From a virus, in IMG/VR virus record IMGVR_UViG_3300032293_000228, positions 1 through 26,436 of that record: a stretch of 26,436 nt of DNA; one strand, given 5' to 3'. The notes below the pieces were generated by a model. The model was not told the DNA's origin, ran no database searches, and was given only the letters and a program-made list of their open reading frames with translations. How positions within the stretch are numbered: the stretch's first letter is position 1; the number at the start of each line of letters is the position of its first letter. Made by a program: the position numbers and the translations under genes. Below are positions 1-26,436 of the stretch, piece by piece.

Positions 1-43
1 ATAAACGCGGGTGCGTGCTTTGTAGGATTGGAACCGCCCTACC

Positions 44-1258
44 CTAGCGCCTTGCCCGTCGCTGCGCTCTGTTCAGTGGCTGCGCCGGCGCAGGCTGCTT
101 CTTGCGCGCGGTCATCCTCTCCACGAGTGGCAGCCAGGACTCGGAAAACACGAGGTCTGCGTCATAGCGCTCCATCGACTGAGCCACCGCAGCGCGGTCA
201 ACCCCTCCCCCCCGTGTCTCCTCATACACCTCTTGCATCGCGGCATAGCCAGCCTCGGTGTTGGCAATAGCGAAGTATGACCCCTGGTACTCATCCCAGA
301 CTCGCTGCGCTTTGACCTTGCGCCCGTGTGGGCCCAATAGTTCAGGCTGGGCGCTGAAGTCAGTCACGATGGCTGGAGTCCCGCAGGACTGCGCTTCCAC
401 TACGGGAATGCCAAACCCTTCGCCCATTGACAGCAGTAGGGTGGCGTCAGCGGCTGAATACATCTGGGCAATAGCCTCCTGCGGGATGCCGTTGCGGAAG
501 TGCTGAGGGTGCGGGTATCGGACGCGCTGCGGGTCAATGCCTGCCTGCGCCACTAGGCGCGGAATGTTTACGCCTTCGCTGTGCCCGTTAGGCTCGGTGT
601 GCAGCATCCAGTAGACATCCTTGCGGTCAGCCATCATCGGCGCCATCACATCCACCATCTCACCGAACCCTTTGCGGACTGGGATGCGTCCACGGTTGGC
701 GGCATTCGTCACGACCAGGAATGCCTCGTCAGGAATGCCCATCGCCTTGCGTGCATCCTTGCCAGTATCTCGGAACACGCTGCGGTCAATTGCGTGCGGA
801 ATGTATGTCAACTCATCTCTGGGCTGCCCAGCCTTCAGCAGCATCTCCTCGCCAAACTGACTCATCGCAATCGCAAAGTGCTGCCCATCCTTAAGGAACT
901 TAAGCACCTGCGGTGGCAGCGGGCTGTGGTCAACGGGAGTCCAGCACGCTAGGTTCATCTCCGTGAATGCCTGCACTCCAACGAGTGGCCAGAGGTCAAA
1001 AAGCACCACGCCAAACCCAGGCTTGTCCGCAATCCAGGAGCGCATCGTGTCCGGCGCAGAGTCGATGGAATAGCGCATCAATCCTTCAGGGAAGATTGGA
1101 TGCCCGTGCGCGCAGTTCATCATCACGCTAGCACCGTGGTTGGAGGCAATCGCTACCTCGTGCCCAGCGCTGACGAGCCGATGCACTACCTGTGCAGTCT
1201 GCATTCCATAGCCTGACGGGATGTGGCAAGCGTTGGAATACCACGCAATGCGACTCAT
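44..1258 (-). CDS. GT-B fold glycosyltransferase (group 1 / GT4-like)
   Basis: Predicted to transfer a sugar from a nucleotide donor to an unknown acceptor. At 404 aa it has the normal length for a two-domain GT-B enzyme. The C-terminal half carries the classic E-x7-E donor-binding motif in GEGFGIPVVEAQ (E280, E288), followed by SCGTPAIVTD; the N-terminal half has the glycine-rich SGYG turn near residue 15. I start it at the ATG at 1258, which follows a GAGGAGG ribosome site; the open frame runs further upstream but without one. The tail ends in NRAQRRARR, a basic tag of unknown role. It follows the HNH gene with an 11-nt gap and is the last gene before the window edge. In phages such enzymes modify DNA, capsid or host surface glycans. 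With a DNA-type glycosyltransferase at the other end of the window, a second sugar addition is possible but is inference. Confidence 0.9.
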   Translation of the reverse strand: MSRIAWYSNACHIPSGYGMQTAQVVHRLVSAGHEVAIASNHGASVMMNCAHGHPIFPEGLMRYSIDSAPDTMRSWIADKPGFGVVLFDLWPLVGVQAFTEMNLACWTPVDHSPLPPQVLKFLKDGQHFAIAMSQFGEEMLLKAGQPRDELTYIPHAIDRSVFRDTGKDARKAMGIPDEAFLVVTNAANRGRIPVRKGFGEMVDVMAPMMADRKDVYWMLHTEPNGHSEGVNIPRLVAQAGIDPQRVRYPHPQHFRNGIPQEAIAQMYSAADATLLLSMGEGFGIPVVEAQSCGTPAIVTDFSAQPELLGPHGRKVKAQRVWDEYQGSYFAIANTEAGYAAMQEVYEETRGGGVDRAAVAQSMERYDADLVFSESWLPLVERMTARKKQPAPAQPLNRAQRRARR

Positions 1259-1268
1259 CTGACCCTCC

Positions 1269-1583
1269 TCACTTGTGCTTCGTGCGTCTGCCGTGACACC
1301 TTCTGCATAGTACAGCCAGCCTGTGCTCGGGCGCAAGTAGCACTCCGCCTCGGCTGATAGGGTCAAGGTGGTCCACAGTCAGGTCAGCGGTCGTGCCGCA
1401 AATCTCGCACCAGCCACGCTTGCGCCGGAGTTGGGCGCTGAGTTTGCGCCACGCGGTGTCGGCATACGGGCTCACGCCCTTGCTGCGGGAATACTTCGCC
1501 AGCATCTCTGCGCGGTGGGCCTTACATCGATTGCCCATTGCGGTCAGGATGCCGCAGTCAATGCACGGGCGCTGGAAGGTCAC
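1269..1583 (-). CDS. HNH endonuclease
   Basis: A 104-aa HNH-family protein. The zinc-binding pairs are C59-x2-C62 and C93-x2-C96; the catalytic core is DH at 71-72, H87 in the middle position and H97 at the end (CRRCH). An extra Cys pair, C7/C10 with C20, may form a second small zinc site. It overlaps the metallopeptidase gene upstream by 4 nt (ATGA). In HK97-like phages HNH proteins often sit beside terminase and help cos cleavage; this one is far from terminase, so it may be a nicking or homing-type nuclease or a host-DNA nuclease instead. The family call is firm, the role is not. Confidence 0.88.
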   Translation of the reverse strand: MTFQRPCIDCGILTAMGNRCKAHRAEMLAKYSRSKGVSPYADTAWRKLSAQLRRKRGWCEICGTTADLTVDHLDPISRGGVLLAPEHRLAVLCRRCHGRRTKHK

Positions 1584-5777: not shown

Positions 5778-6518
5778 TCAGAATGGCAACTCCTCAAGGG
5801 ACTCCTCTGGAACCATTCGTGGCTTGGCTGGAGCCGGAGCACCCTGCGCTGCAATCCACTTGGCGCTTGGCTTATCCTTGCACCACGAGCCGTCTGGAGC
5901 CTTGTGACTTGCCGCCCAGAACGGGTTGTATGGCTTGCCAGTCGCCTTGCTTACGCCTCCTGGCTTCAGGCTCCAGGACTCGCCGTGAGAGCACACCCCT
6001 TCGCCTGCCGTATCCGCAAAGAGCATTGCCGCCTTGAGCGCCAACTGCGCATCGTCGCTCAGGGTGCTCGTAGAATCCCCTGCAATGGGTGTAGGAGCGA
6101 CCAGGACGGGCGTTTGCCCCTTATTGGCTGTCTGAGTACCTGCCTGGCTCTTATCAGGGCTGTATAGGCTCCTGCCCACGCCTATCTGCGCCGCGCACCT
6201 GCGGAGCGCATCCGAGGCTGCGGACTTCAATGGCTCGTCATCCTGACTGCTGTTGGGATAGCCGAAGTCCTGCCGCATCGTGGTCTTGCCGTCAACCACA
6301 ATGATGAGGTTGCCGTGTACCACGCTCCGTGCGGGGTCAGCCACCTTGACCTCAAACTGCCAACCTCCGATGCCGAGCACATCGTCCAGTCGCTGTGCGA
6401 CTGCCCGTGCGTCCGCGTAGGTGAACACGAGTCCACCCCGCCCCGGTCGCTGCTTTAAGTCCTTGCCATCGAATGGCGCCGCCAGCGCCTGTGCAACTGT
6501 CTGCTTGTCGGTTGTCAT
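5778..6518 (-). CDS. Rad52/Rad22-family single-strand annealing protein
   Basis: A 246-aa recombinase that should anneal complementary single strands during phage recombination. Residues 29-120 match the Rad52 core: GLVFTYADARAVAQRLDDVL, then GGWQFEVKV, a DGKTTMRQDFG strand pair and DEPLKSAASDALRRCAAQIG. A Pro/Thr-rich linker follows, then a Cys/Trp/Gly-rich domain (CSHGESWS ... GSWCKDKPS) that may bind zinc. The last residues, ESLEELPF, resemble the acidic tip of bacterial SSB. It sits directly after the YqaJ exonuclease gene (ATGA-type overlap), so the two form an exonuclease-annealase pair. Confidence 0.88.
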   Translation of the reverse strand: MTTDKQTVAQALAAPFDGKDLKQRPGRGGLVFTYADARAVAQRLDDVLGIGGWQFEVKVADPARSVVHGNLIIVVDGKTTMRQDFGYPNSSQDDEPLKSAASDALRRCAAQIGVGRSLYSPDKSQAGTQTANKGQTPVLVAPTPIAGDSTSTLSDDAQLALKAAMLFADTAGEGVCSHGESWSLKPGGVSKATGKPYNPFWAASHKAPDGSWCKDKPSAKWIAAQGAPAPAKPRMVPEESLEELPF

Positions 6519-7459
6519 TCTCCGATTCCCTCCTGCTTAAACTTGAACACCCGCGCACCAGGAGTTTCCTTGGTGTACGCATTTACAATCTCTGGCGCAG
6601 GCTTGAGAGCCTCCATCAAGAGTTTGTAGTCAACTGTGTGGCGTGGCTTGCTCTGCTTCCAGGTTGCCTGCCAGCCGCTGCCAACGATGCCCTGCTTGGC
6701 ACCGATGGCATCCTTGAGCCCTATTGCCAGATTGTCCACCTCCTGTTCCAGCAGTTTTAGTTCATAACTGCGCTCTGAATACAACGATGCGAGGCGCTCG
6801 ATGCTCGCATCTGCTTGGGCCCACTCCTCACTCTCCTGCGGGGTGACGAGCGCCAGTGCCTTTGCGTCCTGACCCGTCAGAGGCGGAGGCGTGTTTGAGG
6901 CAATCATCTCCATAAACTCCTGCGCCTTGCCGAACAACTCCGCCTGATACTTCCAGTCTGCCTTGACGCGCTCAATGCGGAACACAAGCCCACCGAGGAG
7001 CACCGCGATGTCGCACCAGGGCGCGTCCATAATCCACATCTGCCACTGCACCTGCGCTGCCACCTCTGGCGGCACTGGATACATTGACCAGCGGGGTGAG
7101 GCGCTGGTCTTAATCTCCACCAGCCCTGAATCTCCTACCACTGTCCGGTCCAGGCTCGCCATCACCCACGGGATTGACTTCATCCGCACGATGCCGTTTG
7201 AGCGCTTAAGTTTGCGCCCCGTTTCAATCTCATAGAATGTTGCGACTGCATCCTCCAGGATGATGCCCCGTTGGGCCGCTGCGCCCGCTGGCTCTGGCTC
7301 GTACTTGCCCAACTTCTCCGCCCAGAGTTGGTATGGAGTCTTGTAGGGGTTAAGCCCTGCAATGACTGATACCTCGGTGGCTGTAATGCCACCCCGGCGC
7401 AGCGCGAACCACTCTGGGCTCCGCTGCGCTGCCTTCACGAACTCGTACTGCTTGCTCAC
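6515..7459 (-). CDS. YqaJ-type viral recombinase (lambda-exonuclease family)
   Basis: A 314-aa 5'-3' DNA exonuclease of the YqaJ family. The opening RSPEWFALRRGGITATE with GLNPY is the family signature. Catalytic residues are visible: E69 in RGIILEDA, D104 in ASLDR, and E115-x-K117 in GLVEIKTS. The C-terminal part has a coiled-coil-like helix (ERLASLYSERSYELKLLEQE) typical of phage versions. It would resect DNA ends to give single strands for the Rad52-type annealer encoded next. It overlaps the zinc-ribbon gene upstream by 4 nt. Confidence 0.93.
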   Translation of the reverse strand: MSKQYEFVKAAQRSPEWFALRRGGITATEVSVIAGLNPYKTPYQLWAEKLGKYEPEPAGAAAQRGIILEDAVATFYEIETGRKLKRSNGIVRMKSIPWVMASLDRTVVGDSGLVEIKTSASPRWSMYPVPPEVAAQVQWQMWIMDAPWCDIAVLLGGLVFRIERVKADWKYQAELFGKAQEFMEMIASNTPPPLTGQDAKALALVTPQESEEWAQADASIERLASLYSERSYELKLLEQEVDNLAIGLKDAIGAKQGIVGSGWQATWKQSKPRHTVDYKLLMEALKPAPEIVNAYTKETPGARVFKFKQEGIGE

Positions 7460-8959: not shown

Positions 8960-9151
8960 TTCGTCATCCTCCTCGGAGGCTGCTATCAGGAACTTCAAGC
9001 AGCGTGTGCAAACACTATTGGACGCAACGAGAGTGCGCCGTGGATTGACTTCCAGAGGCTCCTCGTTGAATCGCCAGACGCGGTTTAGTCCACCGCACGC
9101 AAAGCAGTATCCGAACAGCGACTGGTCAGACGCACCTATGTCGTGAGGCAC
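8948..9151 (-). CDS. small zinc-ribbon protein
   Basis: A 67-aa protein with C16-x2-C19 (CFAC) and C48-x2-C51 (CTRC), a probable four-cysteine zinc site, and an acidic tail (SEEDDEAAP). It overlaps the end of the metallophosphoesterase gene by 16 nt and is the last gene before the tandem hairpins. Function unknown; the pairing may point to a shared role in DNA metabolism. Confidence 0.65.
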   Translation of the reverse strand: MPHDIGASDQSLFGYCFACGGLNRVWRFNEEPLEVNPRRTLVASNSVCTRCLKFLIAASEEDDEAAP

Positions 9152-10317
9152 GGCAGCACGCGGAGGTCATCCCATCCGAATGGGCCCACCGTGATGGTGA
9201 GCAGTCCAGCAGGTGCGACTACGCCTGCCTGCTCGGTGAACCACTGGCTGCCGCCATCGAGCGCCGGAGCCTGGAAGTGCGTGCGACTACCTGACTGCTT
9301 TACCACGAGATGGTGGTAGTGACCCGTCAGGAGAATGTCTGCATCACCAATCGGCTGGAGCCCGAATGCCTGCTTGCCCCACCACGATTCTGCGGAGCCC
9401 TTCACCTGATGCCCGTGTGCAAGTCCCACGATGGTTCCATTCACATCCAGCGTCAGCGTCAGTTCATTCTTTGGGAATACAAAACTGATGTGGTCATAGT
9501 CTGGGTTGGCGCGAATAATCTCAGCCACCTGTTCCATCACCGCAACATCATCGTTGTCCCCGAAGGTCGTGTATGCCTTGCCGTTTTGCCGATTCTCGCC
9601 GTGGTTGCCTGGAACTGCTGCGACAATAATGCGAGGCGCAAAGGTTGCCCAGCGGGTCAGCGCCTTGACAAGAATCCGCCGCAGTACGGTGGTCTGCTCT
9701 CGCCTATCTAGGTCAGCCTGGAATGACTGCATCGCATAATGTCCGGCGCAAGACTCAAACAAGTCACCGAGCCCAACCACTACCATCTTGTCAAGTGGCC
9801 GCCCTAACTTGCGCAACTCTTTCCAGCGCTCCTCTACCTCGGTGATGCCAGACAAGAATCTGGTGACGATGCCTGCGGAGCCTCCGCCCTCGCCCTTGCC
9901 CATCTGGAAGTCAGACAAGGCAACAACCATCGCCATCTCGCCATCGAGCGTCGCAACCTTCTTTGGCTTGTAGCGCTTAATCTCCTCCATCAGCGCCTGG
10001 TAGTCAGCCCCCAAAGGTGCACGCTTCTGTACCACCTTGCCCTTCCACTGCCGATTCAGGATGCCGTTTGGGTCACCCCACACATTGAACAGGACGGGCT
10101 CTACAACGGAAAACTGCGCAGGGTCAAGTCCCCAGACGCGCAGGATGGCATCCCAGTCTGGTGCGTTGTCGGCTGGCATCGCCGTGGAAGTGATGGTGCC
10201 TTGCTTGCCGTCCCACGACACTCCAGGCTCCCAGCCCTCGGGGTGTTCGCGCTTGGGCCGCTTGGCTGTCTCAATCTCTTGCTGCACCGCAAGAATCTCT
10301 CGCAACTCTTTACTCAT
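9136..10317 (-). CDS. calcineurin-like metallophosphoesterase
   Basis: A 393-aa protein whose second half has the metallophosphoesterase motifs in order: SDFQ (D136), GLGDLFE (D185), GNHGE (N238, H239), AHGH (H301, H303) and TGHYHH (332-336). Two metal ions should bind these residues. Phage members of this type are often annotated as Mre11-like nucleases, but the substrate is unproven. The N-terminal 115 residues are a separate, phage-specific region. I use the ATG at 10317 because it overlaps the previous stop as ATGA; a GTG nine bases upstream is possible. The gene follows the HTH gene, a pairing that I recall from actinobacterial phages. Confidence 0.85.
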   Translation of the reverse strand: MSKELREILAVQQEIETAKRPKREHPEGWEPGVSWDGKQGTITSTAMPADNAPDWDAILRVWGLDPAQFSVVEPVLFNVWGDPNGILNRQWKGKVVQKRAPLGADYQALMEEIKRYKPKKVATLDGEMAMVVALSDFQMGKGEGGGSAGIVTRFLSGITEVEERWKELRKLGRPLDKMVVVGLGDLFESCAGHYAMQSFQADLDRREQTTVLRRILVKALTRWATFAPRIIVAAVPGNHGENRQNGKAYTTFGDNDDVAVMEQVAEIIRANPDYDHISFVFPKNELTLTLDVNGTIVGLAHGHQVKGSAESWWGKQAFGLQPIGDADILLTGHYHHLVVKQSGSRTHFQAPALDGGSQWFTEQAGVVAPAGLLTITVGPFGWDDLRVLPCLTT

Positions 10318-10520
10318 CGTGAGCACCCGCAGTCACCGCGTCGGTGTCGGTTTACATTGAACTGGCGCCAATCGATGCCCTTGCCTGATAGCCAAACCTC
10401 AACCGCCTTGCCCGTGATGTCCCTGCGCTCCAGCGCAGCGTCCAGCGCGGACTTATCCGAGGCGCTCAGCCCCAGGAGTTGATACTTGCAAGGTGGACCC
10501 TTGCGCACCTTTGTGTCCAT
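10314..10520 (-). CDS. small HTH-like DNA-binding protein
   Basis: A 68-aa protein with a helix-turn-helix-like pattern: LSASDKSALDAALERRDITGKAVEVWL followed by a basic end, NVNRHRRGDCGC. The RHRRGDC ending is typical of small proteins encoded just before a phosphoesterase in actinobacterial phages (recalled pattern, not searched). The ATG follows GAGGAGGAG. It may act with the phosphoesterase on DNA or be a transcription factor; unresolved. Confidence 0.65.
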   Translation of the reverse strand: MDTKVRKGPPCKYQLLGLSASDKSALDAALERRDITGKAVEVWLSGKGIDWRQFNVNRHRRGDCGCSR

Positions 10521-11673: not shown

Positions 11674-13019
11674 TTCTCTAACTCCCTCAGTCTGCTTTCA
11701 AGGTCATTAACGCGGTGCCAGAGCGCCGCAATCAACGCCACAGGGTCGATGGTCTCAGGCTTTCCCTCGGAATCATATCCCACCGCGTGCGTCAGACCAG
11801 CATCGTGAATCTCCTCTGCGATGAAGCCCAGGCGTGTTGCGCCGTTCTCATCCTCAATGATTGACTCATAGTGGCGTGGCTTAACTTTGCGCGCTGCCTC
11901 AAGCACCACCTCATCGGCATCCACAATGTTTGTCTTGTAGCGCGCTGAGGATGTGTTGCGGCGCAGTTGGTAGTTCGTGCCAGATACCAGCACCCAGATT
12001 CCTGCGCTTGATGTCTGCGTTGTGGTTTGAGGCGTATCGTGCCTCAGACCCTGTGCGCCTGTGAGGTTGGCATTGAATCCACTGAATGTCCCATTTGTTC
12101 CGATGGTGGCCGCGCCGATTGTGGCGGAGGCAGAACTGAGCGCGCCTGTAACTGTTGCTGCGCCTGTGACGGTGGCGCCTGAGGTGGTGACGCTGAGTCC
12201 ATTGAGTGAGTCTCCCGCTGTGTTTGCGGTGATGTTCAGCGAGCCGTTCTCTTGTCTGATATACGCAGGCCCATATGTTCCAGGCGTGGTTGACTCAGCG
12301 ATGGTCAAGTCAGAACTTCCAAGCACAAGTCGTACATCAAACACCTTGATGGTTCGTGATGCCAGCGTGGTGCCAGCGTTCTGGAAGGTGATGCTGACCT
12401 TGTAGAACGCTGCATCTGGCTGAAGCGCCGTATCAACCCAAGTGGTGAACTGGTCAACATCAGGCAATAGGTTCTCAACAACACCAGTGTATGAGTTGAA
12501 CTGATAGGTATTCAGCGTGACGACTGAGCCAGTCGTAGTAAATGCCTGCGTGTATTGACGACCAACTGCGTAGAGTTCAGCATCGGTGTTGTTGGAGGCG
12601 CTGCCCATCGTCAACATTGGGTTGATACAGAATGTCTGACCGCGTGAGCCTGGAATCGGAATGTAGCGACTCAGGGTCAGTGAGCCGCCAGTCCCAGCAC
12701 CCACCGTAATCTGTAGGACTTTTCCTGAAGCCGCCGAAGCATCCGCAACAATTGCAGCGGAACAGGTGCTACCAGTTGTCGTCACAGTCCAGTACGGCAG
12801 AGGATTTTCAGCGGTGATGTTTCCAGTGGAGTCATCAGGAGAAATAGCAAAGTCACCGTTGGCAACAAGCGTTTGAATCTCTCGCAGCGCGGCTGGTCCG
12901 AACAGCAGCGCAGTCTCGCCGTCGCTGCTCGTGCTGACGAGCGCCGCGCCGTTTTCGCTAGTGACGCCGCCCTCGTAGCCGCCAAGCCCAGTGAGGTCTG
13001 TGCCGTATCGCTCTGCCAT
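11670..13019 (-). CDS. tail fibre/tail protein with S74 self-cleaving chaperone domain
   Basis: A 449-aa structural protein. The N-terminal half is Ser/Thr-rich beta structure with a probable carbohydrate-binding-like region (about 50-235), then short repeated Thr/Ala/Gly strands (TTSGATVTGAATVTGAL) like a trimeric beta-helix. The end (about 357-449) is a Peptidase_S74 intramolecular chaperone: SSARYKTNI supplies the Ser-Lys dyad (S357 and K362), RLGFIAEEI follows, and the C-terminus is a coiled coil (HRVNDLESRLRELE). In this family the chaperone trimerises the fibre and then cuts itself off before the serine. It is the last tail gene and likely binds the host. Confidence 0.87.
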   Translation of the reverse strand: MAERYGTDLTGLGGYEGGVTSENGAALVSTSSDGETALLFGPAALREIQTLVANGDFAISPDDSTGNITAENPLPYWTVTTTGSTCSAAIVADASAASGKVLQITVGAGTGGSLTLSRYIPIPGSRGQTFCINPMLTMGSASNNTDAELYAVGRQYTQAFTTTGSVVTLNTYQFNSYTGVVENLLPDVDQFTTWVDTALQPDAAFYKVSITFQNAGTTLASRTIKVFDVRLVLGSSDLTIAESTTPGTYGPAYIRQENGSLNITANTAGDSLNGLSVTTSGATVTGAATVTGALSSASATIGAATIGTNGTFSGFNANLTGAQGLRHDTPQTTTQTSSAGIWVLVSGTNYQLRRNTSSARYKTNIVDADEVVLEAARKVKPRHYESIIEDENGATRLGFIAEEIHDAGLTHAVGYDSEGKPETIDPVALIAALWHRVNDLESRLRELEK

Positions 13020-13021
13020 CT

Positions 13022-14425
13022 CTAGCCTCCAGCCTTCGTTAGCAGCGCAGCAACTGCACTGCGCTTTGTGTATTCAGCCTCAATGTCTATGCGCAACTGA
13101 TAGGAGCCTGGCGACTCAAACGAATAAGTGACGCTTGCCACTCGCAGGATTTCGTTCAAGTCTAGTGCGGCGGCAGTCACCTTCACGAACTGCCCTGGCA
13201 GCCACGCATTCACGAGTGTGCCTGCTGAAGAGTAGCCCTGCGTCAGCCCATACTCCCAGTTCGGATTTGTTAGTTGCGTCTGGCTTGAGCCAGAGATTGT
13301 AAATGACACGGTGCGTACTGGCTTGGAGCGCACCTGCATCGTCCCCTTCGTGAGTCGCTGAATCTTAGTGGAGCGAGAGCCAAAGCCAAACTTTGCAACC
13401 TTTGGTGCGCTGAATACTTCCTGCGCAAGTGGCCCAGTGCGTGAGGTAAGCCCAGAGCCTGAGTATGGAGCGGTGCCAGTATAGGTGCGGAAATACGGCT
13501 GACTTGTAATCGGGCTGGCGTTGCCATCGCGGTCTGCGCGTGAGTCTGCCGCTTGCACGAAGATGCCCTTAACGATGTTGTCGTGGTCAAGGGTGACAGA
13601 AAGATTGTGCGCAAGTAGGCGCGTTGCGGTTCCAGCACTACCAGTACGCGCAGCAGTAGGGTCAGTGACAATCTCCGCTGGCGCGGTTGCCGTTCCTGGA
13701 ACTACAATGGGCCCATAGTTCAGGCGCGCAGCGCCGTCCACATAGAAGTTATATGGCAGCCCATTCTCGCCGCTTGCCTCCTCTGCAATCTGGCTCAGCG
13801 CGCTGGTCAAAGTGGTTGCCTTGAAGTCAAGGCTGCCCAGGGTCACCGCTGTCCCAGAATAGCGAGCACGAGTGCTGCCGCTGATGATGCTGGTGTCCAG
13901 AATCTGGCGCGTGGTCGCGTCGTTCACTTGGTCGTGAATCCTCGCCAGCAACTTGTCGATGTGTTCGCGGTCAGTCAGCGCAGTACCACCCTGCTTGAAT
14001 GAGCCAACTGCTTGATAAATGTCTGTGCCGGTATATGACTTGCGCACTAGGGTTTTGCCAAGCCATCCGTCAGCATCGGCAACCGTGACTGTTGCCCTGG
14101 TTCCAAATCCACTGCCAAGCATCTCTGCGTCAATACCTGTGATGTATCCCAGAAACAGCGCCGTGCCTGATGAGTAGCGCGAGTCAATAAACTGCACACG
14201 CGCGTTGTCTGCTACGGCGCCAGACTTCCACCACGGCCCACCCGCGGGAGTCTCCGTCTGTAGGACATCGAATGACATTCTGCCGCCACCATCGGCGCTG
14301 ACATTTGCGCTGAAACTGCCAAGTTCAATATATGGCGTCGTGCCAGCGGTTGAGGCTGGCAGCGTGAGCAGGTTTGCGGTGCCGCCGCCAACTCCAGCGA
14401 TGGTGACTGAGTATGGGTTTGACAC
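13022..14425 (-). CDS. tail tip/baseplate protein
   Basis: A 467-aa protein encoded directly after the tape measure, the usual place of distal tail and hub proteins. It is beta-rich, with Gly/Ser/Thr-rich segments and a terminal region (YQLRIDIEAEYTKRSA) like phage hub or distal-tail proteins. I see no enzymatic motif. It starts at GTG overlapping the tape measure stop (TAGTG). Assigned mostly by position and composition. Confidence 0.72.
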   Translation of the reverse strand: MSNPYSVTIAGVGGGTANLLTLPASTAGTTPYIELGSFSANVSADGGGRMSFDVLQTETPAGGPWWKSGAVADNARVQFIDSRYSSGTALFLGYITGIDAEMLGSGFGTRATVTVADADGWLGKTLVRKSYTGTDIYQAVGSFKQGGTALTDREHIDKLLARIHDQVNDATTRQILDTSIISGSTRARYSGTAVTLGSLDFKATTLTSALSQIAEEASGENGLPYNFYVDGAARLNYGPIVVPGTATAPAEIVTDPTAARTGSAGTATRLLAHNLSVTLDHDNIVKGIFVQAADSRADRDGNASPITSQPYFRTYTGTAPYSGSGLTSRTGPLAQEVFSAPKVAKFGFGSRSTKIQRLTKGTMQVRSKPVRTVSFTISGSSQTQLTNPNWEYGLTQGYSSAGTLVNAWLPGQFVKVTAAALDLNEILRVASVTYSFESPGSYQLRIDIEAEYTKRSAVAALLTKAGG

Positions 14426-15684
14426 TATGGGCGCGTGCGGCGAGGGTTGGGGTCAAGCATTCCAAGATAGGATGCCGCTGTCTGCCCCACCACCTTCTTG
14501 TCAAGCACGATGTTCGTGATAACGCTCGTGCTGCCGCCTCCTGTTGTAGCACCGAGTCCAAATACAGAACTGGCTGATGCGCGTTCACGAGCCCCAGCCT
14601 GCTCAGCCCTAGCCTCCGGAGTGCTGACTTTGTTCAGCGCGTTGACCACTGCCGTGACATTATCCACTAGCCACATCAGCGCATCAAAGAATGGCTTGGC
14701 AAGTGCAAACGCAGCCTTGATGGCCTCTCCGAGTGCCTTAAACGCAAACGCAAGTGCACCCTCTCCGTCACCCCAGAGCGCTCCAATAAGGTCGCCCACG
14801 GACTCAAACACTCCGCCAATCGCCTCGGCAACTTCGCCAAAGGCAGGCATCAGGTCATCAAGGATTGGGCCCACAACCTTGCCGATTGACTCAGCAATGC
14901 CACCCTTGCCAGCAAAGGCATCTGCCACTCCAAAGATAATGTCACCGAGTGTGTCAAGCGCCGGGGTGACCATCGGCAGAATCGTGTTTGTCAGGAATCC
15001 GAGCGCCTCGTTGACGGCTGGCAGGAACTTCGCACCGAATGCCTCAAACTTCTCGTTGAGGTCAATCTGCGCTGCCTCAAACTTGCCAGCGGTGCTGTTT
15101 GCAATCTCCTCCGCCACACCTTGATACTTCTCATTGGCAGCAGTCAGGATGTCCTGCAACTTGGCGCCCTTCTTGACTTCAATGCCAAGTGTCTGTAATC
15201 CACGAGTGCTACCCTGTGCGCCCTTGCCGAGCGCCAGCATCACTTCTGCGAGTGGCTTGCCCGTAGCGGCAGAGATGTTGGCGGCAACTGCGTTTGCCTT
15301 GAGCAGCGCATTCTGATTCTTGAAGAATCGGCTGCCTACCTCAAGCCCGTCACGCACCTCATCGTCTGTGATGCCGAGGCGCTGCATTGCCTTGATTTGC
15401 TCGTCCACCTTTGGCCCAAGTGCGTCCAGGTTGAACCCGCGTGCCTTCAGCGCCGCGTTGAGCCTGATGGTTGCCTTCTCATCCTCCGCCGCGCTCTTGA
15501 TAGCGGCAAGCGTGAATCCAGCCACAGCCGTGACCGCAGTTAGGGCAGCAGCGCCAATAGCCTTAAACGCTGCGACTGCGTTTGACTTCATTGAGCCAAA
15601 CGACTTGCCTACACCCTTGAGAACCTTGCTTGCGGCATCCTTGGCAACAACCGCAAAGACTGCCTGACCATTCGATGACACCAT
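14425..15684 (-). CDS. tail tape measure protein (short)
   Basis: A 419-aa, mostly helical, Ala-rich protein with hydrophobic segments (AAALTAVTAVAGFTLAAIKS near 46-65; more around 220-260) and tape-measure-like repeats. It is encoded after the tail chaperones and the gp10-like protein and before the tail tip genes. By the usual 1.5 angstrom per residue rule the tail would be about 60 nm, short for a siphovirus. The ATG at 15684 follows GGAGGTAG. Confidence 0.88.
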   Translation of the reverse strand: MVSSNGQAVFAVVAKDAASKVLKGVGKSFGSMKSNAVAAFKAIGAAALTAVTAVAGFTLAAIKSAAEDEKATIRLNAALKARGFNLDALGPKVDEQIKAMQRLGITDDEVRDGLEVGSRFFKNQNALLKANAVAANISAATGKPLAEVMLALGKGAQGSTRGLQTLGIEVKKGAKLQDILTAANEKYQGVAEEIANSTAGKFEAAQIDLNEKFEAFGAKFLPAVNEALGFLTNTILPMVTPALDTLGDIIFGVADAFAGKGGIAESIGKVVGPILDDLMPAFGEVAEAIGGVFESVGDLIGALWGDGEGALAFAFKALGEAIKAAFALAKPFFDALMWLVDNVTAVVNALNKVSTPEARAEQAGARERASASSVFGLGATTGGGSTSVITNIVLDKKVVGQTAASYLGMLDPNPRRTRP

Positions 15685-16744: not shown

Positions 16745-17752
16745 TTAGGGCAACGCCGCCAAGTCACTATTAACGACGATGCGCAATGACTTTGCGCTTG
16801 TCTGGTCATACACGAGCGTGCCCGTCACGGCCATCGTGGTGAGCCCATCTTCAGCGCCAGCCATCTGCTGCACTTCGGTTGGGACAATCATCGCCATAAT
16901 GTGCGCGCTGTAGGTGCCGTTGCTCCAGGACAGTCGCACGCCTCGTGGCGTCGCTGCCTGGTAGGCGTCATACCACGAACTGACTGCCGAGGAGGTGCTG
17001 CTCACCGTCATCGTCAGGCTGCCCGTGAATGGGCCGCTCTCTGCGTGCGTGCTGAAACTTGTCGTGCCAGCCAAGTATGACTGGCGCAGGATACCTGCAT
17101 TGAACTCAAGACTGAAGTCAAGCAAGTACTCGTATGCCGTGCCATCAGCAGTTCCTGGGAATGCCGTGCCGTGCTGATAAGCATTCCACAAGCGTCCTGC
17201 CATAAATGGCGAAGTTGGCGTGCCGTCTGCAAGCGTTGCGCTGCTCTTTGCAATCGTCTGCGCGAACAGGTTGGCGCTCAGGTTGGTGAGCCCGCTCCGG
17301 TCAGCCGCAATCGTGATGGACTCCGCCAAGCAATAGTTCGCAACGTACTGCTGAATGCCATCCGTGGCAACGAGGCTGTATGAGGTTGGCGAGTTGGCTG
17401 CCGTCATTGAGTAGTCGTAGTCCCACTCATATGGCGCAGCCGTACCAGACACGGTGTCAGTCTTTGTCATTGACAACCAGATTGGCAACTCACCTACGCT
17501 GATGGCTGGAACTGTTGCGCTGAGCGTTGGCTCAACGCTGACGATAGTTCCAGTCGTTGCGATGAGTGGGTTGCGGAGCGCAACGCTGCGCTCTGCTCCC
17601 AACTCGATGGTCGTGCCGTTTGTGATGACTCCCGTAGGGGTCACCAGCAACTTACGCCCGCCGCTTGTTAGCGTTGGCGTAGTGCCTGAGGTGGCCTCCT
17701 TGAATGCCACCAGTTTGCTGAACAAAACATTGCCTGCGCTGGCTGCTGGCAT
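16745..17752 (-). CDS. major tail protein (tail tube)
   Basis: A 335-aa Ser/Thr-rich beta protein encoded just before the tail chaperones, the standard place of the tail tube subunit. It has alternating strands such as TPYIELG-like segments and LDFSLEFNAGILRQSY, and a late region (GSLTMTVSSTSSAVSS) typical of tube proteins. The start overlaps the preceding stop (TGATG). No catalytic motif. It should form the hexameric rings of the tail. Confidence 0.85.
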   Translation of the reverse strand: MPAASAGNVLFSKLVAFKEATSGTTPTLTSGGRKLLVTPTGVITNGTTIELGAERSVALRNPLIATTGTIVSVEPTLSATVPAISVGELPIWLSMTKTDTVSGTAAPYEWDYDYSMTAANSPTSYSLVATDGIQQYVANYCLAESITIAADRSGLTNLSANLFAQTIAKSSATLADGTPTSPFMAGRLWNAYQHGTAFPGTADGTAYEYLLDFSLEFNAGILRQSYLAGTTSFSTHAESGPFTGSLTMTVSSTSSAVSSWYDAYQAATPRGVRLSWSNGTYSAHIMAMIVPTEVQQMAGAEDGLTTMAVTGTLVYDQTSAKSLRIVVNSDLAALP

Positions 17753-19591: not shown

Positions 19592-19610
19592 CTAACTCTT
19601 TATGAGTTAG
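19592..19610 (-). repeat. 7-bp hairpin covering the capsid stop codon
   Basis: A perfect inverted repeat, CTAACTC / GAGTTAG with a 5-nt loop. The TAA stop of the capsid gene is inside one arm. Together with the 12-bp hairpin it forms a tandem structure. Confidence 0.6.
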
Positions 19611-20764
19611 GCAACATTGGCGGACTTGAATGACTTGACTGCGCTTGCCTGGGCAAGACCAGTCGCGCCACGCACTTCAACCTTGTACGAAACAAGACCC
19701 GTGTTCCACGCAAACTCGCGTGAAACATCAACTCGCACGCCGCCAACAAGCGCCGTGTAAATCTGCCCGAGGTCACCGAACAGGATTGAACCTGCGGTGT
19801 CATCGGTGAGGTCAATCAGCGCTGCGGAATACACTGGCGCTCCGAGGAGTCGGTCAGGGTTATTCGCATCGCCTGCGCGGAAGATTGGCTGACCCGTTGT
19901 ATCAACGAGCCCGGTCACAACACCAAGCGTGGTGTCATTCATCAACCAACCAGCCTTTGGCGCTCGTCGGTACACCTGGTTCACAGATGCCTTCAACTTC
20001 GCAAGGTCAGTGTAGTTTGGGTTGACCGTGGTGCCCGAGCCCGTCACGCCAGCACCTGCGGCAGCGGCAATCGCCGTACCAGCAAACGCACCGTGCGCAA
20101 CTGCAACTTCTGCACCGCACTTGTCGGCAATCATCCCAGCCAGGTCAAAGACTGCATCCTCAACAAGTTCCTCAGAAACCTGAATGATGGTTGCATACTT
20201 CACTGGTGTAAGGGACAGCGCGCTGAGCGTGCCGTCCGACTCACCGATGGTGCCAGCCTCAGCAACGCTACCTGCGGTGCCGAGAGCAGTGACTCGTGGG
20301 AACTGGATGTTGTTGCCGTTGGCAACACGCACCACAGTGATAATCCCTGGGTCAAGGAATGGGTTGAACTGAGCCGCAACAACATTCACGCGGTCAGCAA
20401 TGGTGACTGGGTTGCCCAGGCCAGTTGACTTCGTGACATCACGGAACTCAAACATACGGCTGCCGCCGTTGCGCCCAAGTGCGCGCAGTTCGGCAACTTC
20501 GCTGTCGTCTGACTTCTCAACCTTTGGAGCGATGACGGCAGCAAACTCTGCGCGCGCTGCATCAGCAGCCGAGCGAGCCTCAGACGCATCCTTCTCCGAG
20601 CGAATGGCGGCAGCAATCGTGCTGGCCTCATTCGTGAGGGACTCAAAACGCGCCTGCGCCTCTCCCTCAAGTGCGGCACCCTTCTCTGCGAGGTCAGCAA
20701 CGATGCTGGTTGCCTCGGTGAGAAGTGACGCACGCTTTTCGTGCAACTTCTTTACATCAGCCAC
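19607..20764 (-). CDS. major capsid protein (HK97 fold)
   Basis: A 385-aa HK97-fold capsid protein. Residues 1-95 form a charged coiled-coil-like delta domain (KLHEKRASLLTEATSIVADL) that acts as scaffold and is normally removed by the prohead protease encoded next upstream. The rest shows typical HK97 pieces: GLGNPVTIADRVN, VANGNNIQFPRV, KYATIIQVSEELVEDA and the C-terminal VRVDVSREFAWNTGLVSYKV. It starts at GTG after AAGGAGG. It is followed by two hairpins. Confidence 0.92.
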   Translation of the reverse strand: MADVKKLHEKRASLLTEATSIVADLAEKGAALEGEAQARFESLTNEASTIAAAIRSEKDASEARSAADAARAEFAAVIAPKVEKSDDSEVAELRALGRNGGSRMFEFRDVTKSTGLGNPVTIADRVNVVAAQFNPFLDPGIITVVRVANGNNIQFPRVTALGTAGSVAEAGTIGESDGTLSALSLTPVKYATIIQVSEELVEDAVFDLAGMIADKCGAEVAVAHGAFAGTAIAAAAGAGVTGSGTTVNPNYTDLAKLKASVNQVYRRAPKAGWLMNDTTLGVVTGLVDTTGQPIFRAGDANNPDRLLGAPVYSAALIDLTDDTAGSILFGDLGQIYTALVGGVRVDVSREFAWNTGLVSYKVEVRGATGLAQASAVKSFKSANVA

Positions 20765-20866: not shown

Positions 20867-22363
20867 TCAGAGCGTTTCAGTGGTCAGTTGCTCAAGCACC
20901 AACTTCGCCTTAGCAATGCTGGGGTCAATCCCAACACGCTTTGGCGCGAGTGTTTCGCGCACCTGGTCCACTACCTGGAGTTCATCCTCAGACAACTCTT
21001 TGGCTGCCTTGATGGACTCCAGCGTTGACATAAGGCGCTCAGCGTCAACGCCAATCTTGTCGGCGGACAACTTGCGCACTGCGGTGAGCCCTAGCGTCGC
21101 AGGGTAGGCAGGAGTCTGCCCAGCGCTCAACACGCTCACCTCAAACAGATTCACTTCACGAATGGTGCGCTGGTCGCCAGCCCACTCATCGCCATTCTTT
21201 GGCACGGCAAACCCAAATGACATTCCCATTGCCGCAGCCTCGTGCGTCAACTTGCTGATGACGCTGGCAGCGTCCGGGTCAGCAGGGTCAAGTTTTGCCT
21301 CTACGCGGAGCCCGCGCTCATCCTCTTGTAAGGCAAGCCGCCCGCTGGCAGTTGTTGCCAGGGCGCGTGACTCGTCGTGCCCGAACAGGAATGAAATGAC
21401 CTTATTGCCCGCACCCGCTCGGCTGAGCGTGCGCTTAAATGCGCCAGGAGCGATGACCTCGGTGAATGGAAGTCCAGCCGAAGGCTGGTTGAACAGCGCC
21501 GCGTATCCCGTGAATGTCTTTTGTCCAGACTCATCTTCAGTCACGCTGAAGTCACCCATCGGCAGTGCGCGTGTTTCCAACTCTTTCACATCAAACCTCT
21601 CTGCTGTGGCATTGATAATGCCGTCTGCCCATCGTACAACGCGGTCAGCGCTCTCCCCATCAGTTGGGTCCACGCCCCACAGGTATGCGGCCACTGCGCC
21701 CGGTCCAGGGAAGTCAGCATCGTCAGCGTTGCTATTGCGTGGCACATCTTCCCAATCGATGCGGTGGCGGAGAATCCAGGCGCGCATTCGCATCACCTTC
21801 TCATCCTCAACCTTGCCTGCGCGGAGTTGTCGTGCCTCCTCCACCGTTTGAGGTTGAAGGCCATCGCCGCTCAACCCAGCCTCGTGGTACTGCAAGCCAC
21901 GAGCAGCCGCATCCTGAATGTATTGCGGAACATCCACGAGCACGCGCATTTCATCATCGCTCTCATCGTCAGCAGTTAGTTCCATCGCCTCGTCTGGCGT
22001 GTAGGCAGCGATGCCCATACCCTCGGCTGTAGCCCTAGCGTCAGCATCGTTGTCAACCAGGAACTCCAACTCATCGCCATACTCCTCTTGCAACTTGCTG
22101 TACTTGTACCCCTTGAATGCTTCTGCAACAGCAGGGCTGCTCTGCTCGTTGAAGTCCTGCAAGTGAATCTCTGAAAATGGCACGCTGTTGTCGCGCAGCC
22201 ACTTCTCTGTTTCGTCAAGCCTGCGGATTGGTCGTGCGCTTACAACGATGACCTCATCACCGCTGTCCTGCACATATGACTTCAGCCAATCGATGTATGG
22301 CTGGTTGGGGGTATCGCCGGTGGTCGTGAGCGTGCCGTCAATGTCGGTGATGATGTATGACAT
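20867..22363 (-). CDS. HAD phosphatase domain fused to prohead protease
   Basis: A 498-aa protein, about twice the usual length of a prohead protease. Residues 1-130 are a HAD-type phosphatase: TDIDGTLT (D7, D9), VVSARP (S42), a lysine near 87-90 and FLVDNDADA (D104, D106). Residues about 140-255 are a phage head-protein module with a helix (MRMRAWILRHRIDW) and PGAVAAYLWGVD. Residues 262-430 are the S78-type protease, with H329 in GHD and S382 in MSFGF. The protease trims capsid delta domains and sits between portal and capsid genes. The role of the HAD part is unknown. The ATG overlaps the portal stop (TAATG) after AGGAG, so both domains are one gene. Confidence 0.88.
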   Translation of the reverse strand: MSYIITDIDGTLTTTGDTPNQPYIDWLKSYVQDSGDEVIVVSARPIRRLDETEKWLRDNSVPFSEIHLQDFNEQSSPAVAEAFKGYKYSKLQEEYGDELEFLVDNDADARATAEGMGIAAYTPDEAMELTADDESDDEMRVLVDVPQYIQDAAARGLQYHEAGLSGDGLQPQTVEEARQLRAGKVEDEKVMRMRAWILRHRIDWEDVPRNSNADDADFPGPGAVAAYLWGVDPTDGESADRVVRWADGIINATAERFDVKELETRALPMGDFSVTEDESGQKTFTGYAALFNQPSAGLPFTEVIAPGAFKRTLSRAGAGNKVISFLFGHDESRALATTASGRLALQEDERGLRVEAKLDPADPDAASVISKLTHEAAAMGMSFGFAVPKNGDEWAGDQRTIREVNLFEVSVLSAGQTPAYPATLGLTAVRKLSADKIGVDAERLMSTLESIKAAKELSEDELQVVDQVRETLAPKRVGIDPSIAKAKLVLEQLTTETL

Positions 22364-23556
22364 TATTCTTGTGGCTCCTGTCCGATTGTGCCGATGTTTA
22401 GTGGCTTCCAGTATGCATCGCCGTCTGGTCCAATCCCTGTCCTGTCCTCCAGGGCTCGCACCTCGTTGATGCTCAAGAAACCATTGTTGAGTGCGGTCGC
22501 ATAAGAGTTGTAGCGCTCCTGCGTGGTGGCGCGGAGGAGCCCGTCAACCGTGAACTTCAGGAAGGTGCGCTCAGCGCCTGGAACCAGTCGCTGGAATGCA
22601 GCCTCAAGTCGTGCTACGAGTGGGCCCAATCCCAGGCGCAGCCATTCGATGCCGATGACTTCCACGCTGCTATATGAGGTGTTGCCGCCTGGGTACTGCA
22701 GCAGATGCAACGGCACGCCATAGATGCGCGCGATTGCCTCAACGCCATAGTGCATTGTCTCCACGAGTTGAAGGTCATTAATCTTGACGCTCATTTGCGA
22801 ATAGTCAGCGCCTCCGGTCAGTACTGCTACGCGCCAGGCGCGGTCAACACCTTCGTGCCTTCGGGCAAAACTATCTCGGAGTGTCTGCGCTTGTTCCTGC
22901 GTCAACTCCCCTGGAACCTTAACCACGCCGCCCACGGTTGCGCCCTGCTCATAAAACTTGGCGCCAAAGAGTTGCGTTGCAGCGGCAAGTCCGAGGGTGA
23001 CGCGGTGATGCTCAACGGGATTCAGCCCACGCTCATTCTCTCCAGTTGCGAACAACGGAATGTGAACAATAGAATCCGCACCGAGGGTTGATGCGCCCTC
23101 CTTTGTTGTCACCTTGTATACGGGCTCACCCATCGGGCCAGACAGTATCTCCACCTTTTGCGGGTCAAGCACTCGTGTCTCAACAACATTGTCAGAGGAG
23201 TCGCGCAGCGCAAGGATGAATGCGTTGCCGTCAATCAGCAGGCTGCTGACCACTCGATGCTTGAAGTCAAACGCTGTGCGGTTGGGGTTGTTAGGCTCCG
23301 GGACATCCATCCAGCGCGGGCGCGGGCGATAAGGTCTGCGCTCACCGTCAACCCTGATGTATGTGTCCCACGGGAGTGAGGCAACTGTGTCGGCGTAAAG
23401 TTTGACGGCTGCATACAGCGCGCCAATGCTTGTTGCATTATCCTCGTTGATGTGTACGCCTGCTGTTTTTTGCGGCAGGTCGGATGGCCACCACGGTGAC
23501 ACCACTCGCTGCTCCTCGGTTTGTTCACGCCCCAGGATGCGGTCAAAGATTCCCAT
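22363..23556 (-). CDS. portal protein (HK97 family)
   Basis: A 397-aa portal subunit that forms the dodecameric ring for DNA entry. Family marks are TSIGALYAAVKLYADTVASL near the start, LLIDGNAFILALRD in the middle, LQLVETMHYGVEAIARIYGV with PLHLLQYP, and a late FLSINEVRALEDRTGI. The length is typical. It follows the large terminase gene and precedes the protease gene, the standard HK97 order. Confidence 0.93.
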   Translation of the reverse strand: MGIFDRILGREQTEEQRVVSPWWPSDLPQKTAGVHINEDNATSIGALYAAVKLYADTVASLPWDTYIRVDGERRPYRPRPRWMDVPEPNNPNRTAFDFKHRVVSSLLIDGNAFILALRDSSDNVVETRVLDPQKVEILSGPMGEPVYKVTTKEGASTLGADSIVHIPLFATGENERGLNPVEHHRVTLGLAAATQLFGAKFYEQGATVGGVVKVPGELTQEQAQTLRDSFARRHEGVDRAWRVAVLTGGADYSQMSVKINDLQLVETMHYGVEAIARIYGVPLHLLQYPGGNTSYSSVEVIGIEWLRLGLGPLVARLEAAFQRLVPGAERTFLKFTVDGLLRATTQERYNSYATALNNGFLSINEVRALEDRTGIGPDGDAYWKPLNIGTIGQEPQE

Positions 23557-23564: not shown

Positions 23565-25076
23565 CTATAGTTCAATGAACTGCACCGCAGCCGCAGGCTT
23601 TGGGCCCACTGCTGTGGAGAGTGTACCAGCACGGCTGTGTGCCATTATCGCTGCAACAAACAAGTCAATGCGCTTCAGGCTGTTCCTTGCCTCCTTGCGA
23701 ACCATCAGCCCGTTGCGTGAATAGTATGGCGTGGCATTGGCTGCGTGCCGCGCAAGTCGTGGGTCAGCGTCGTGCTTGATACTCCCATTCACCACAGCAT
23801 CATACATCGCACTTGTTGCTGGCACCATACGGGATGGTGTCTGCGGAAACTCCACGACTGGCAACCCCATCTGTTGCCACGCCTCCATCGAGCGCTGCCA
23901 CCTAAACGGGTCACAGACAATCTCTTTCACATCGTGGGACAAACAAATGCTAGTCATTGCAGCCTCCACCTCCTCAACTGGTACGCGCCAAGTCAGCGCA
24001 TCGTCAAGTCCACGCTCCCAGTGCCCTAACACGAACAGCGCCTTGTCGCTGATACGGCACGCCACGATTGCGGTGGAGTCGTTGCTGAATGAGCCGTCAA
24101 ACCCAAGCACGATAGGGTCAGCCTTGTCCAGTTTGAGCGTCTTGTCCTCCAGTGCCTCCCACGCGCCCTGCGGCAAGAATGACTCGCTGGAGGTGACCCA
24201 ACGATTCAGCCGCTTGGTTTCATACTCGTCACGCGGCAACGAGCGTGCTGCGGCAGCGAAGTCCTCTGGGTCAAGGAAGTCCCCGAATGCTGGATTGGCT
24301 GCGGCTGCTGCCTCTGGTGTATTCCATTCGACATCCTCCGGCGCAGCGAACCACCTGAAGTAAAAAGTGGGGTCATCCACTTCGCCACTCTTGATGCGTT
24401 GGCCGTATTGCCAGAGCGTGTAGCAAAGGCTGAACTCTCCACGGCTGTTCATCTTGGCACCAGCGGTTGAGATGCCGAGCACTAGCGGATTGCGTCGTGC
24501 GCCTGAGCCCAGGTTCACGGTTGCCCAGAGTCTGTCATCTGGCTGAATGTGTACCTCGTCAAAGATGACCGTGCTGAAGTTGTATCCCTCTGCGCGCGAT
24601 GCGTCTGCCGAGAGCACGCGCAGCACGCTGCCTGTTTCTGGGTACTCAATCACATCCCTAAGCGTGTGCAGTTTGCGTGAGAGTATGGGGTCAAGTTCCA
24701 CCATCCTGGCGCACTCTCGGAACACGATGCGAGCCTGCGCCCTATCTCCCGCAACGATGGCAACCTCAGCGCCAACTTCGGTGAACAGCGAGTAGAGAGC
24801 AATGCCAGATGCGAGGATGCTCTTGCCATTCTTGCGAGGCATCATCAGAAGCCCGCGCCGATACCTGCGCCGCCCGTCCTGGCGCAACTCAAAGATGTCG
24901 TTGAGAATCTCCTTCTGCCACGGGCGCAGTTTCATTAACTGCCCAGCGCTATCACCCTTGCTTAGTCGGCAGAATGACTCGATGAACTCCGCAACCAGTG
25001 GGCCTTCTGACTTAGGCGCGCCGCGCCGCCTTGATGATGGCTTCAAGTTTGGCTGTGGCGCTGTTTGCTTGTCCAT
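23565..25076 (-). CDS. terminase large subunit
   Basis: A 503-aa packaging motor and nuclease. The ATPase part has a modified Walker A, MPRKNGKS (79-86), Walker B TVIFDEVH (169-176, D173/E174) and the coupling motif GISTAG (201-206). The nuclease part has D327 (GFDGS), D389 (VCDP) and D471 (RIDLFVAA). It matches HK97-type large terminases in order and length. The ATG follows GAGAGGAG and overlaps the small subunit gene by 65 nt. Confidence 0.95.
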   Translation of the reverse strand: MDKQTAPQPNLKPSSRRRGAPKSEGPLVAEFIESFCRLSKGDSAGQLMKLRPWQKEILNDIFELRQDGRRRYRRGLLMMPRKNGKSILASGIALYSLFTEVGAEVAIVAGDRAQARIVFRECARMVELDPILSRKLHTLRDVIEYPETGSVLRVLSADASRAEGYNFSTVIFDEVHIQPDDRLWATVNLGSGARRNPLVLGISTAGAKMNSRGEFSLCYTLWQYGQRIKSGEVDDPTFYFRWFAAPEDVEWNTPEAAAAANPAFGDFLDPEDFAAAARSLPRDEYETKRLNRWVTSSESFLPQGAWEALEDKTLKLDKADPIVLGFDGSFSNDSTAIVACRISDKALFVLGHWERGLDDALTWRVPVEEVEAAMTSICLSHDVKEIVCDPFRWQRSMEAWQQMGLPVVEFPQTPSRMVPATSAMYDAVVNGSIKHDADPRLARHAANATPYYSRNGLMVRKEARNSLKRIDLFVAAIMAHSRAGTLSTAVGPKPAAAVQFIEL

Positions 25077-25497
25077 CGATGTCTCCTCTCAAACCAACTC
25101 GTGCCGCTGGAGTCAGCCCCAACTCACGCGCATACTTCTTGACGGCATCTGCGTTGTCCCGAACAATCTGGTGGAGTGGATTCTTGACGAACTCTCCGCC
25201 ACGCCCCTTGATAAGTGGGCCAGTCTTGTTCAGCATACTCTCTGCCTCCAGGTAGCGTGCGAGTGCTTCGCAGTACAACCGCAGTAAGTCCTTATCTGCT
25301 GAGGTCAGGACACCCGTTGACCCCAGCGCCTCAATGACCCTCTCCCAGACTGCGCGCGCATCGTCGCGCAAGTCAGGCGGAGGAGTCAGCGGGCCACCAG
25401 CCGGGATTGGCTCGGCATAGTTGATGACGCTTGGGCGTGTTTCGCCAGAGAGAATCTTGAGCCGCGTTGGCTTAGGCGCTGGCCCTCGTGTGCCCAT
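25012..25497 (-). CDS. terminase small subunit, P27 family
   Basis: A 161-aa protein that recognises phage DNA and recruits the large subunit. It begins with the P27-type GTRGPAPKPTRLKILSG and continues with helices DDARAVWERVIEALGS and LTSADKDLLRLYCEALARYL, then GEFVKNPLHQIV and LGLTPAAR, all usual for the family. The ATG follows AAGGAGA, 3 nt after the glycosyltransferase gene. Confidence 0.93.
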   Translation of the reverse strand: MGTRGPAPKPTRLKILSGETRPSVINYAEPIPAGGPLTPPPDLRDDARAVWERVIEALGSTGVLTSADKDLLRLYCEALARYLEAESMLNKTGPLIKGRGGEFVKNPLHQIVRDNADAVKKYARELGLTPAARVGLRGDIDGQANSATAKLEAIIKAARRA

Positions 25498-25500
25498 CGC

Positions 25501-26394
25501 TCATTCTCCTTGCTTTTGTTCGTCATCCTCATAGCGCATCCCGTACTCGTTGGGCTCTGCTTCCAAAGCAAGTCCGGGTTTGCGTCGCAACTTATTGCGC
25601 TTGAATGGAGTGTAATCCACATAGTGATGCCATCTCCCAAAGCGCCAGACAATCTTTGACACATCTGGGTGCAAGTCCACCTGCATCTTGGACTTAGGAA
25701 GCGTGCCTTCTTTGGCGTAGAACTCTGCCGTGTTCCCACCCTTGACTGTCTGCGTGCGGAGTTTCATTTGCAGGAATGCGTTGAACTGCACCGTGCACCA
25801 ACCATCCTTGAGCATTCGCAGGCTCAGGTCGGTGTCCTCGTTGTACCTTCCGCGCCAGCGATACGGCACATCATTCCTGATGAGGTTGCACGAGTAGATG
25901 CGAGTGTTCAGGGCAAAGGGTGGCTGCTTGCTCTTACGGCTGGCAAACATAAAGTAGTTGGGCCCACTCATCGCCACATTGTCGTAGCGGTCAACGAAGT
26001 CCTCCATCGCAGCAAAGATGGCGCCAGTCTTGGCTGGCACTTTGAAGTTGCGGTTGAGCCTGAAGAATCCGTCAATGTTGTCGTCCATCACCCAGTGGCT
26101 TGTGGCTCCTGCCTTGATGGAATGCTCCCACGCAAAGTTGCGCGCAGGTCCTGGCCCTTTGCTCTTGGTCATCCCCAAGTCGTCGCAGGGGTCATAGTCA
26201 ATCTGGTACTGCTTGTCGAGCACCAGCAAGGTGGCTGACGAGTCTATGTGCCGAGCGTACTCATCGTGCTCTTGCTCCTCAACAACGATGTAGTGCGGCA
26301 CGCCCATCTCGTGCAACGAGCGACTCGTCAGGCGAGAGTCTGCCCTGCCTTTGCTGACGATGTATAGCGGGTGCTTAGGATTTGTCATCGACAT
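25501..26394 (-). CDS. TET-associated-type glycosyltransferase (DNA hypermodification)
   Basis: A protein of about 297 aa matching the TAGT/GREB1-C-terminal-like glycosyltransferases. Its marks are PKHPLYIVSKGRADSRLTSR near the start, GPGPARNFAWEHSIKAG, the metal-binding-like HWVMDDNIDGF, and RGRYNEDTDLSLRMLKDG with LRTQTVKGGNTAEFY. Family members are linked to glycosylation of oxidised 5-methylcytosine or related bases in phage DNA. The partner dioxygenase or methylase is not in this window. The start is uncertain: ATGs at 26394 and 26388 and a TTG at 26418 are possible, all without a strong ribosome site; the two ATGs give short overlaps with the upstream gene. Confidence 0.85.
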   Translation of the reverse strand: MSMTNPKHPLYIVSKGRADSRLTSRSLHEMGVPHYIVVEEQEHDEYARHIDSSATLLVLDKQYQIDYDPCDDLGMTKSKGPGPARNFAWEHSIKAGATSHWVMDDNIDGFFRLNRNFKVPAKTGAIFAAMEDFVDRYDNVAMSGPNYFMFASRKSKQPPFALNTRIYSCNLIRNDVPYRWRGRYNEDTDLSLRMLKDGWCTVQFNAFLQMKLRTQTVKGGNTAEFYAKEGTLPKSKMQVDLHPDVSKIVWRFGRWHHYVDYTPFKRNKLRRKPGLALEAEPNEYGMRYEDDEQKQGE

Positions 26395-26436
26395 AACGCT
26401 TGGTGACCAGTCTGCCAATCTCTGCTTCTGGGAACC
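26375..26436 (-). CDS. C-terminal fragment of an upstream gene
   Basis: A frame open to the window edge that ends with TAA at 26375 (last residues FPEAEIGRLVTKRYVDDKS). It overlaps the glycosyltransferase start by about 14-20 nt, like other gene joints here. It is too short to identify. In related phages DNA methylase or ParB-like genes can occupy this place, but nothing here proves it. Confidence 0.4.
   Translation of the reverse strand, partial: FPEAEIGRLVTKRYVDDKS

Follow-up and report, generated by a model that had tools for sequence, protein, structure and literature searches.

Near-complete loss of five palindromic tetramers from a siphophage contig and lineage-specific sets of purged words among its relatives

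Gene content and affiliation of the contig

The window analysed here is a whole 26,436-base IMG/VR virus record (IMGVR_UViG_3300032293_000228), which represents an incomplete HK97-type siphophage genome. The genes recognized on its minus strand include those for the large terminase (23565-25076), which served as the query for finding relatives, the portal protein (22363-23556), on which the tree discussed below is based, an S78 prohead protease with an N-terminal extension (20867-22363) and an HK97-type major capsid protein (19607-20764). No protein of the group is better conserved than the small terminase (25012-25497), which is 78-87% identical in most relatives while capsids go down to 25%, indicating an unusually conserved packaging specificity. 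Also encoded on this strand are a YqaJ-type exonuclease (6515-7459), a Rad52/22-type annealing protein (5778-6518), a tail/receptor module (11674-14591), a TET-associated glycosyltransferase (TAGT; 25501-26418) that may be a DNA base hypermodification enzyme, and a small HNH endonuclease-like protein (1269-1583), recognized by sequence inspection, HNH families being found in the pooled scans. No integrase was found among the families listed for this incomplete window or among the first 25 listed in the pooled scans of the group.

Megablast of the window against known phages gave no match and thus no near DNA relative. Among annotated phages the closest is the Pontimonas phage phiPsal1 (MG835450, 31-kb genome), which is only distantly related and has homologues of the terminase (42% identity), portal, protease, capsid, group 1 glycosyltransferase and metallophosphoesterase. 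Because the next closest terminases are those of Streptomyces phages and the metallophosphoesterase (9136-10326) matches almost solely actinophages, the host of the window phage is likely to be an actinobacterium. By terminase, no prophage close to the group was detected in 84,980 species genomes, the single relative (35%) lying in Brevibacterium. Phage-borne SAM synthetase had no counterpart at a strict threshold in 397 genomes of the Brevibacterium phylum, a result that is uninformative on the host. The most similar long relative of the window, G001 (28,450 bases), has a ParB-methyltransferase, which was not found in the incomplete window.

Five palindromic tetramers are purged from the window

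The whole window (1-26436, both strands) is free or nearly free of five tetramers: exact counting gave GATC 0, CATG 0, AGCT 0, ACGT 1 and AATT 2, against second-order Markov expectations of 112, 138, 106, 76 and 47, respectively. The sequence-only reading, made by eye, had reported the near-absence of the first four words, with a single ACGT at 17343-17346, and the exact recount agrees in both respects, no word of the four reaching anything like dozens of copies. It had further noted AATT as rare, at about two copies; there are exactly two where about 48 are expected, which brings AATT into the purged set as its fifth member. Of the words said to be kept, CTAG (30), TCGA (42) and TGCA (122) are indeed present, and TTAA is found 30 times; GTAC (55) is well above the "over 20" first given, and TCGA falls below its shuffle mean.

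As a null model we shuffled synonymous codons within the 44 CDS that cover 96% of the window, with protein sequence and codon usage held fixed. The shuffled sequences are expected to hold 104±7 GATC, 68±7 CATG, 116±8 AGCT, 59±6 ACGT and 48±6 AATT, so that the five deficits (z from -7.5 to -14.7) go beyond what protein sequence and codon usage impose, and near-zero counts are not predicted without selection. Codon choice follows the purge as had been proposed for Phe-Met pairs and for Ile after G-ending codons: none of 151 internal ATG codons is preceded by a codon ending in C, and ATC is never used for Ile after a G-ending codon (0/92), yet it makes up 206 of the 396 Ile codons overall. TCGA, GGCC and CCGG lie about 60-65% under the codon-shuffle mean without being purged, so the deficit in palindromes is to some extent a general one. 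A similar depletion was seen for no 5-mer in the window and, among 6-mers, only for CCAAGG (2 found, 17 expected).

All five purged words are known orthodox Type II specificities, recognized by MboI/DpnII (GATC), NlaIII (CATG), AluI (AGCT), MaeII/HpyCH4IV (ACGT) and TspEI/MluCI (AATT). Under the rule of Rusinov for elimination of Type II sites (observed/expected below 0.1 with more than 15 expected), every one of them counts as eliminated (0/112, 0/138, 0/106, 1/76 and 2/47).

Related contigs purge different words

Related phages show the same kind of purging with different word sets. Already among 80 contigs sharing the terminase, and later among 176 non-redundant related contigs, nearly every long lineage was found to have its own purged set; the 105 contigs of at least 8 kb hold 38 sets, one of them empty, and the maximum in the census of 176 is five words, reached in three contigs. 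Observed-to-expected ratios are bimodal and mostly on/off, GATC for instance being below 2% of expectation in 16 contigs and between 2% and 20% in none. Examples are AGCT and CATG (G002), AGCT and GGCC (G003), AATT, GGCC and TTAA (G004/G005), AATT and CATG with CTAG and TGCA nearly gone (G014/G015), CATG and CCGG (G018), and ACGT, CATG, GATC and TCGA (G020). No tetramer is purged from G006/G007, but CCWGG and CCTCG are. Degenerate words (CCWGG, GGWCC, RGCGCY, GRCGYC, CYCGRG, GTYRAC, GTNAC and CTYRAG) and Type IIS words (GAAGA and GTCTC) missing from various relatives likewise match known Type II specificities.

The source samples, going by the metagenome identifiers, are presumably mainly freshwater. 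Contigs with a purge identical to that of the window come from other metagenomes (L001, L006 and G001), while contigs with different sets occur together in one sample, as in metagenomes 3300034198 (L004, L009, L011 and L026) and 3300032116 (L240, L167, L177, L198 and L247).

Two asymmetric patterns were also observed. Each of the G009/G010 genomes (L094-L097) has about 1,100 CAG trinucleotides, yet at most one ACAG or CCAG (an MCAG purge), and in mirror image G016-G019 (L106-L112) are almost without TCAG and GCAG (a KCAG purge) but retain ACAG and CCAG. We know of no Type II specificity or 4-bp enzyme matching either word, and these purges may indicate undiscovered restriction specificities.

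The purged words of the window all have A before T; the sequence-only reading saw this in the first four and allowed, as an alternative to restriction, for a rule not yet described. As a rule it fails, since relatives also purge CTAG, TGCA, TCGA, TTAA, CCGG and GGCC; words with T before A are purged in G013-G015 (CTAG and TGCA), G020 (TCGA), and G004, G005, G009 and G010 (TTAA). A before T is a strong tendency outside the window's clade, not a law: there, A-before-T words are purged in 215 of 852 eligible contig-word pairs and T-before-A words in 12 of 686 (motif-level p 0.005, the contigs not being independent and trimer-based expectations being low for purged words). So strong an excess is not predicted by restriction alone.

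Sets switch between close relatives

On a portal tree of 151 entries the minimum number of state changes, a rough figure owing to recombination, is 19 for AGCT, 18 for AATT, 16 for CATG, 9 for ACGT, 8 for CCGG, 5 for ATAT, 3 each for GATC, GGCC and TGCA, and 1 for CTAG. A full swap separates L193 and L208, which are 88.2% identical over 5,088 bases: L193 has 15 GATC, 0 AGCT and 0 CCGG, and L208 has 0 GATC, 8 AGCT and 9 CCGG. The pair has most of its other palindromes at the same positions (CATG, 19 vs 15, with 12 in place), and the 15 lost GATC sites were replaced most commonly by GATT (6) and GACC (4), both single-base changes. L196 and L257, about 95% identical, contain 1 and 10 AGCT. In L004, which belongs to the same clade as the window, AGCT is kept (23 of 47 expected) but the four remaining words are lost as in the window; of 15 AGCT aligned with the window, all are gone there, 13 of them without amino-acid change. 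Site loss is mostly by one synonymous base change.

The residual sites of the window are few. Its ACGT (17343-17346) corresponds to ACAT in the nearest relatives L240 and L004, its first AATT (788-791) to AATA in the nearest relative L082, and both are private to the window within its own clade; the second AATT (12750-12753) lies within the tail module. That module has been exchanged between the window and G001, which otherwise align at about 91% identity. It is nearly clean in the window, and in G001, where it makes up 15% of the length, it holds four of the eight residual forbidden sites (excess p 0.02), as would be the case if clearance of the imported DNA were still under way.

L249:1-4682 and L175:9446-14127 are 100% identical over 4,682 bases. 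L249 has seven CATG, all outside this stretch, and L175 has none; this may reflect recombination between lineages with different purged sets, or else chimeric assembly.

Escape from host restriction as the probable cause

Avoidance of restriction sites is a textbook phenomenon, which usually concerns one word per phage or is a fixed trait of a family. About one tenth of viral genomes have lost Type II sites wholly or almost wholly; such elimination is an established strategy, is most marked in non-temperate phages, and in published surveys takes place almost solely at orthodox Type II sites (PMC6286503). The window resembles the dsDNA phages described earlier in that palindromic Type II words approach zero over the whole genome and on both strands (Sharp 1986; Rusinov et al. 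2018, PMC6286503). It differs from the latter survey in losing five words in 26 kb and in belonging to a family in which sets switch among close relatives; moreover, the sites in that survey were matched to enzymes found in the host's annotation, whereas our case is known from phage sequence alone. The closest parallel is the HF1 group of haloviruses, from which CTAG and GATC are wholly lost (AGCT also in HRTV-7), TGCA and CATG are reduced, and GGWCC and many 6-mers are lost, with methylases encoded by the phage; these are, however, myoviruses of archaea, whose seven isolates share a single, nearly fixed core set, compared with 38 sets and swaps here (PMC7230728). The mycobacteriophages of cluster B3 share a subcluster-specific, genome-wide shift in one restriction tetramer, but there GATC is four-fold over-represented instead of absent (PMC4841201). 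Our literature search found no account of purged sets that switch between lineages. Restriction-site elimination is known, then, and what appears new by our literature searches is the number of words together with the rapid combinatorial switching within one group.

Whatever selects against these words must recognize short sequences in double-stranded DNA, be either present or absent for a given lineage, and change quickly, which fits host Type II restriction. We consider it highly probable that the phages escape, site by site, from successive Type II systems of their hosts, a known anti-restriction strategy that is seen here at unusual completeness and turnover, with host endonucleases as the presumed selecting agents. 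In a lytic-looking phage, many separate, mostly synonymous point mutations would clear the recognition words, GATC, CATG, AGCT, ACGT and AATT being those of Type II systems met in hosts of the window's lineage. As only a site-free genome would be uncuttable, selection would persist to the last copy; each encounter of a lineage with new host strains would add words to be cleared, and those freed from selection would presumably come back by drift. The sequence-only reading had suggested that the lineage was long exposed to hosts possessing several restriction or methylation systems. Exposure to several restriction systems is the explanation best supported by the different Type II sets, their switching and the lack of any phage gene that tracks them, but "long" may be wrong, since sets switch between sequences 88-95% identical. 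Three findings speak against a Type II explanation: the temperate-looking distant relative phiPsal1, which differs from the window in having cI/cro-like regulators, purges no tetramer; the strong excess of A-before-T palindromes goes beyond what restriction alone predicts; and the asymmetric MCAG and KCAG purges fit no Type II specificity known to us.

These asymmetric words, odd for Type II enzymes, could instead point to another host defence acting at the same words, such as methylation-dependent nucleases (DpnI type) or phosphorothioate systems (Dnd/Ssp). GATC is in addition a target of Type IIM enzymes and of phosphorothioation, and the GATC-free HF1-group haloviruses have been discussed in these terms (PMC7230728). 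Nevertheless, most words purged across the relatives are palindromic, in strict or degenerate form, as the words of Type II enzymes typically are, and strong elimination was reported by Rusinov et al. solely for Type II (PMC6286503), so that we regard a non-orthodox defence as improbable. Still less credit can be given to the idea that the phage destroys host DNA with a site-specific nuclease of its own and has removed its own sites: the group does carry small HNH and PDDEXK-type nucleases, but relatives with different sets have them in common, and when genes were tested against words across 15 long records (738 tests) none tracked the purged set, the best result (p 0.0014) not withstanding correction and pointing the wrong way for such a model. 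Codon usage, base composition or mutational bias without selection on words could account for the general part of the palindrome deficit (TCGA, GGCC and CCGG), but for the five words it is ruled out by the shuffle, which still expects 48-116 copies, and by orthologues of similar protein sequence in L241 (capsid 91% identical), which keep 41 GATC, 36 CATG, 59 AGCT and 34 AATT in 8 genes. That the absence arose artificially, through a library made with restriction enzymes, through assembly or through misreading, is conceivable for a metagenomic contig that is not an isolate, but is excluded for practical purposes by the exact recount, by the same purge in contigs of other metagenomes, by differently purged relatives within the same metagenomes, and by changes that consist of substitutions in aligned genes.

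If escape from host Type II restriction is indeed the cause, the genomes seem to record the defence enzymes that each virus lineage has recently survived. One natural phage group offers on/off purging that affects about 12 words, combined in dozens of ways and swapped between sequences 88-95% identical, and this makes the speed at which a site class is cleared, the return of cleared sites once selection stops, and the value of the purged set as a predictor of the host restriction repertoire testable now from sequences. A bolder proposal, which we advance tentatively, is that each purged set, made up of independent switches, evolves fast and could be read as a log of the restriction systems in current and recent hosts, including the undescribed specificities MCAG and KCAG and the A-before-T preference. 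If true, hosts and host switches might be inferred for uncultured phages.

Candidate anti-restriction genes

Among 23 long records, likely anti-restriction genes encode a ParB-methyltransferase (20), a C5 methyltransferase (8), a Mom-like protein (6) and TAGT (6), as called from pooled scans and sequence motifs, the Mom and second-methyltransferase labels being assigned per cluster by inference. The presence of TAGT in 6 of the 23 hints at hypermodified DNA; the families listed included no gene for a TET/JBP partner. A gene pooled under the GP88 family (PF17338; L099:1358-2110 and six other records) goes with unpurged CATG, being present in none of eight long CATG-purging records and in six of seven non-purging ones (p 0.0014, not significant after correction). 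The probable Mom-like DNA modification gene (L092:6534-7352) has relatives in G006-G008, G012, G015 and G016, and records carrying it tend to lack a smaller number of tetramers than the others (mean 1.5 vs 2.9 purged), a difference that is suggestive only (p 0.07).
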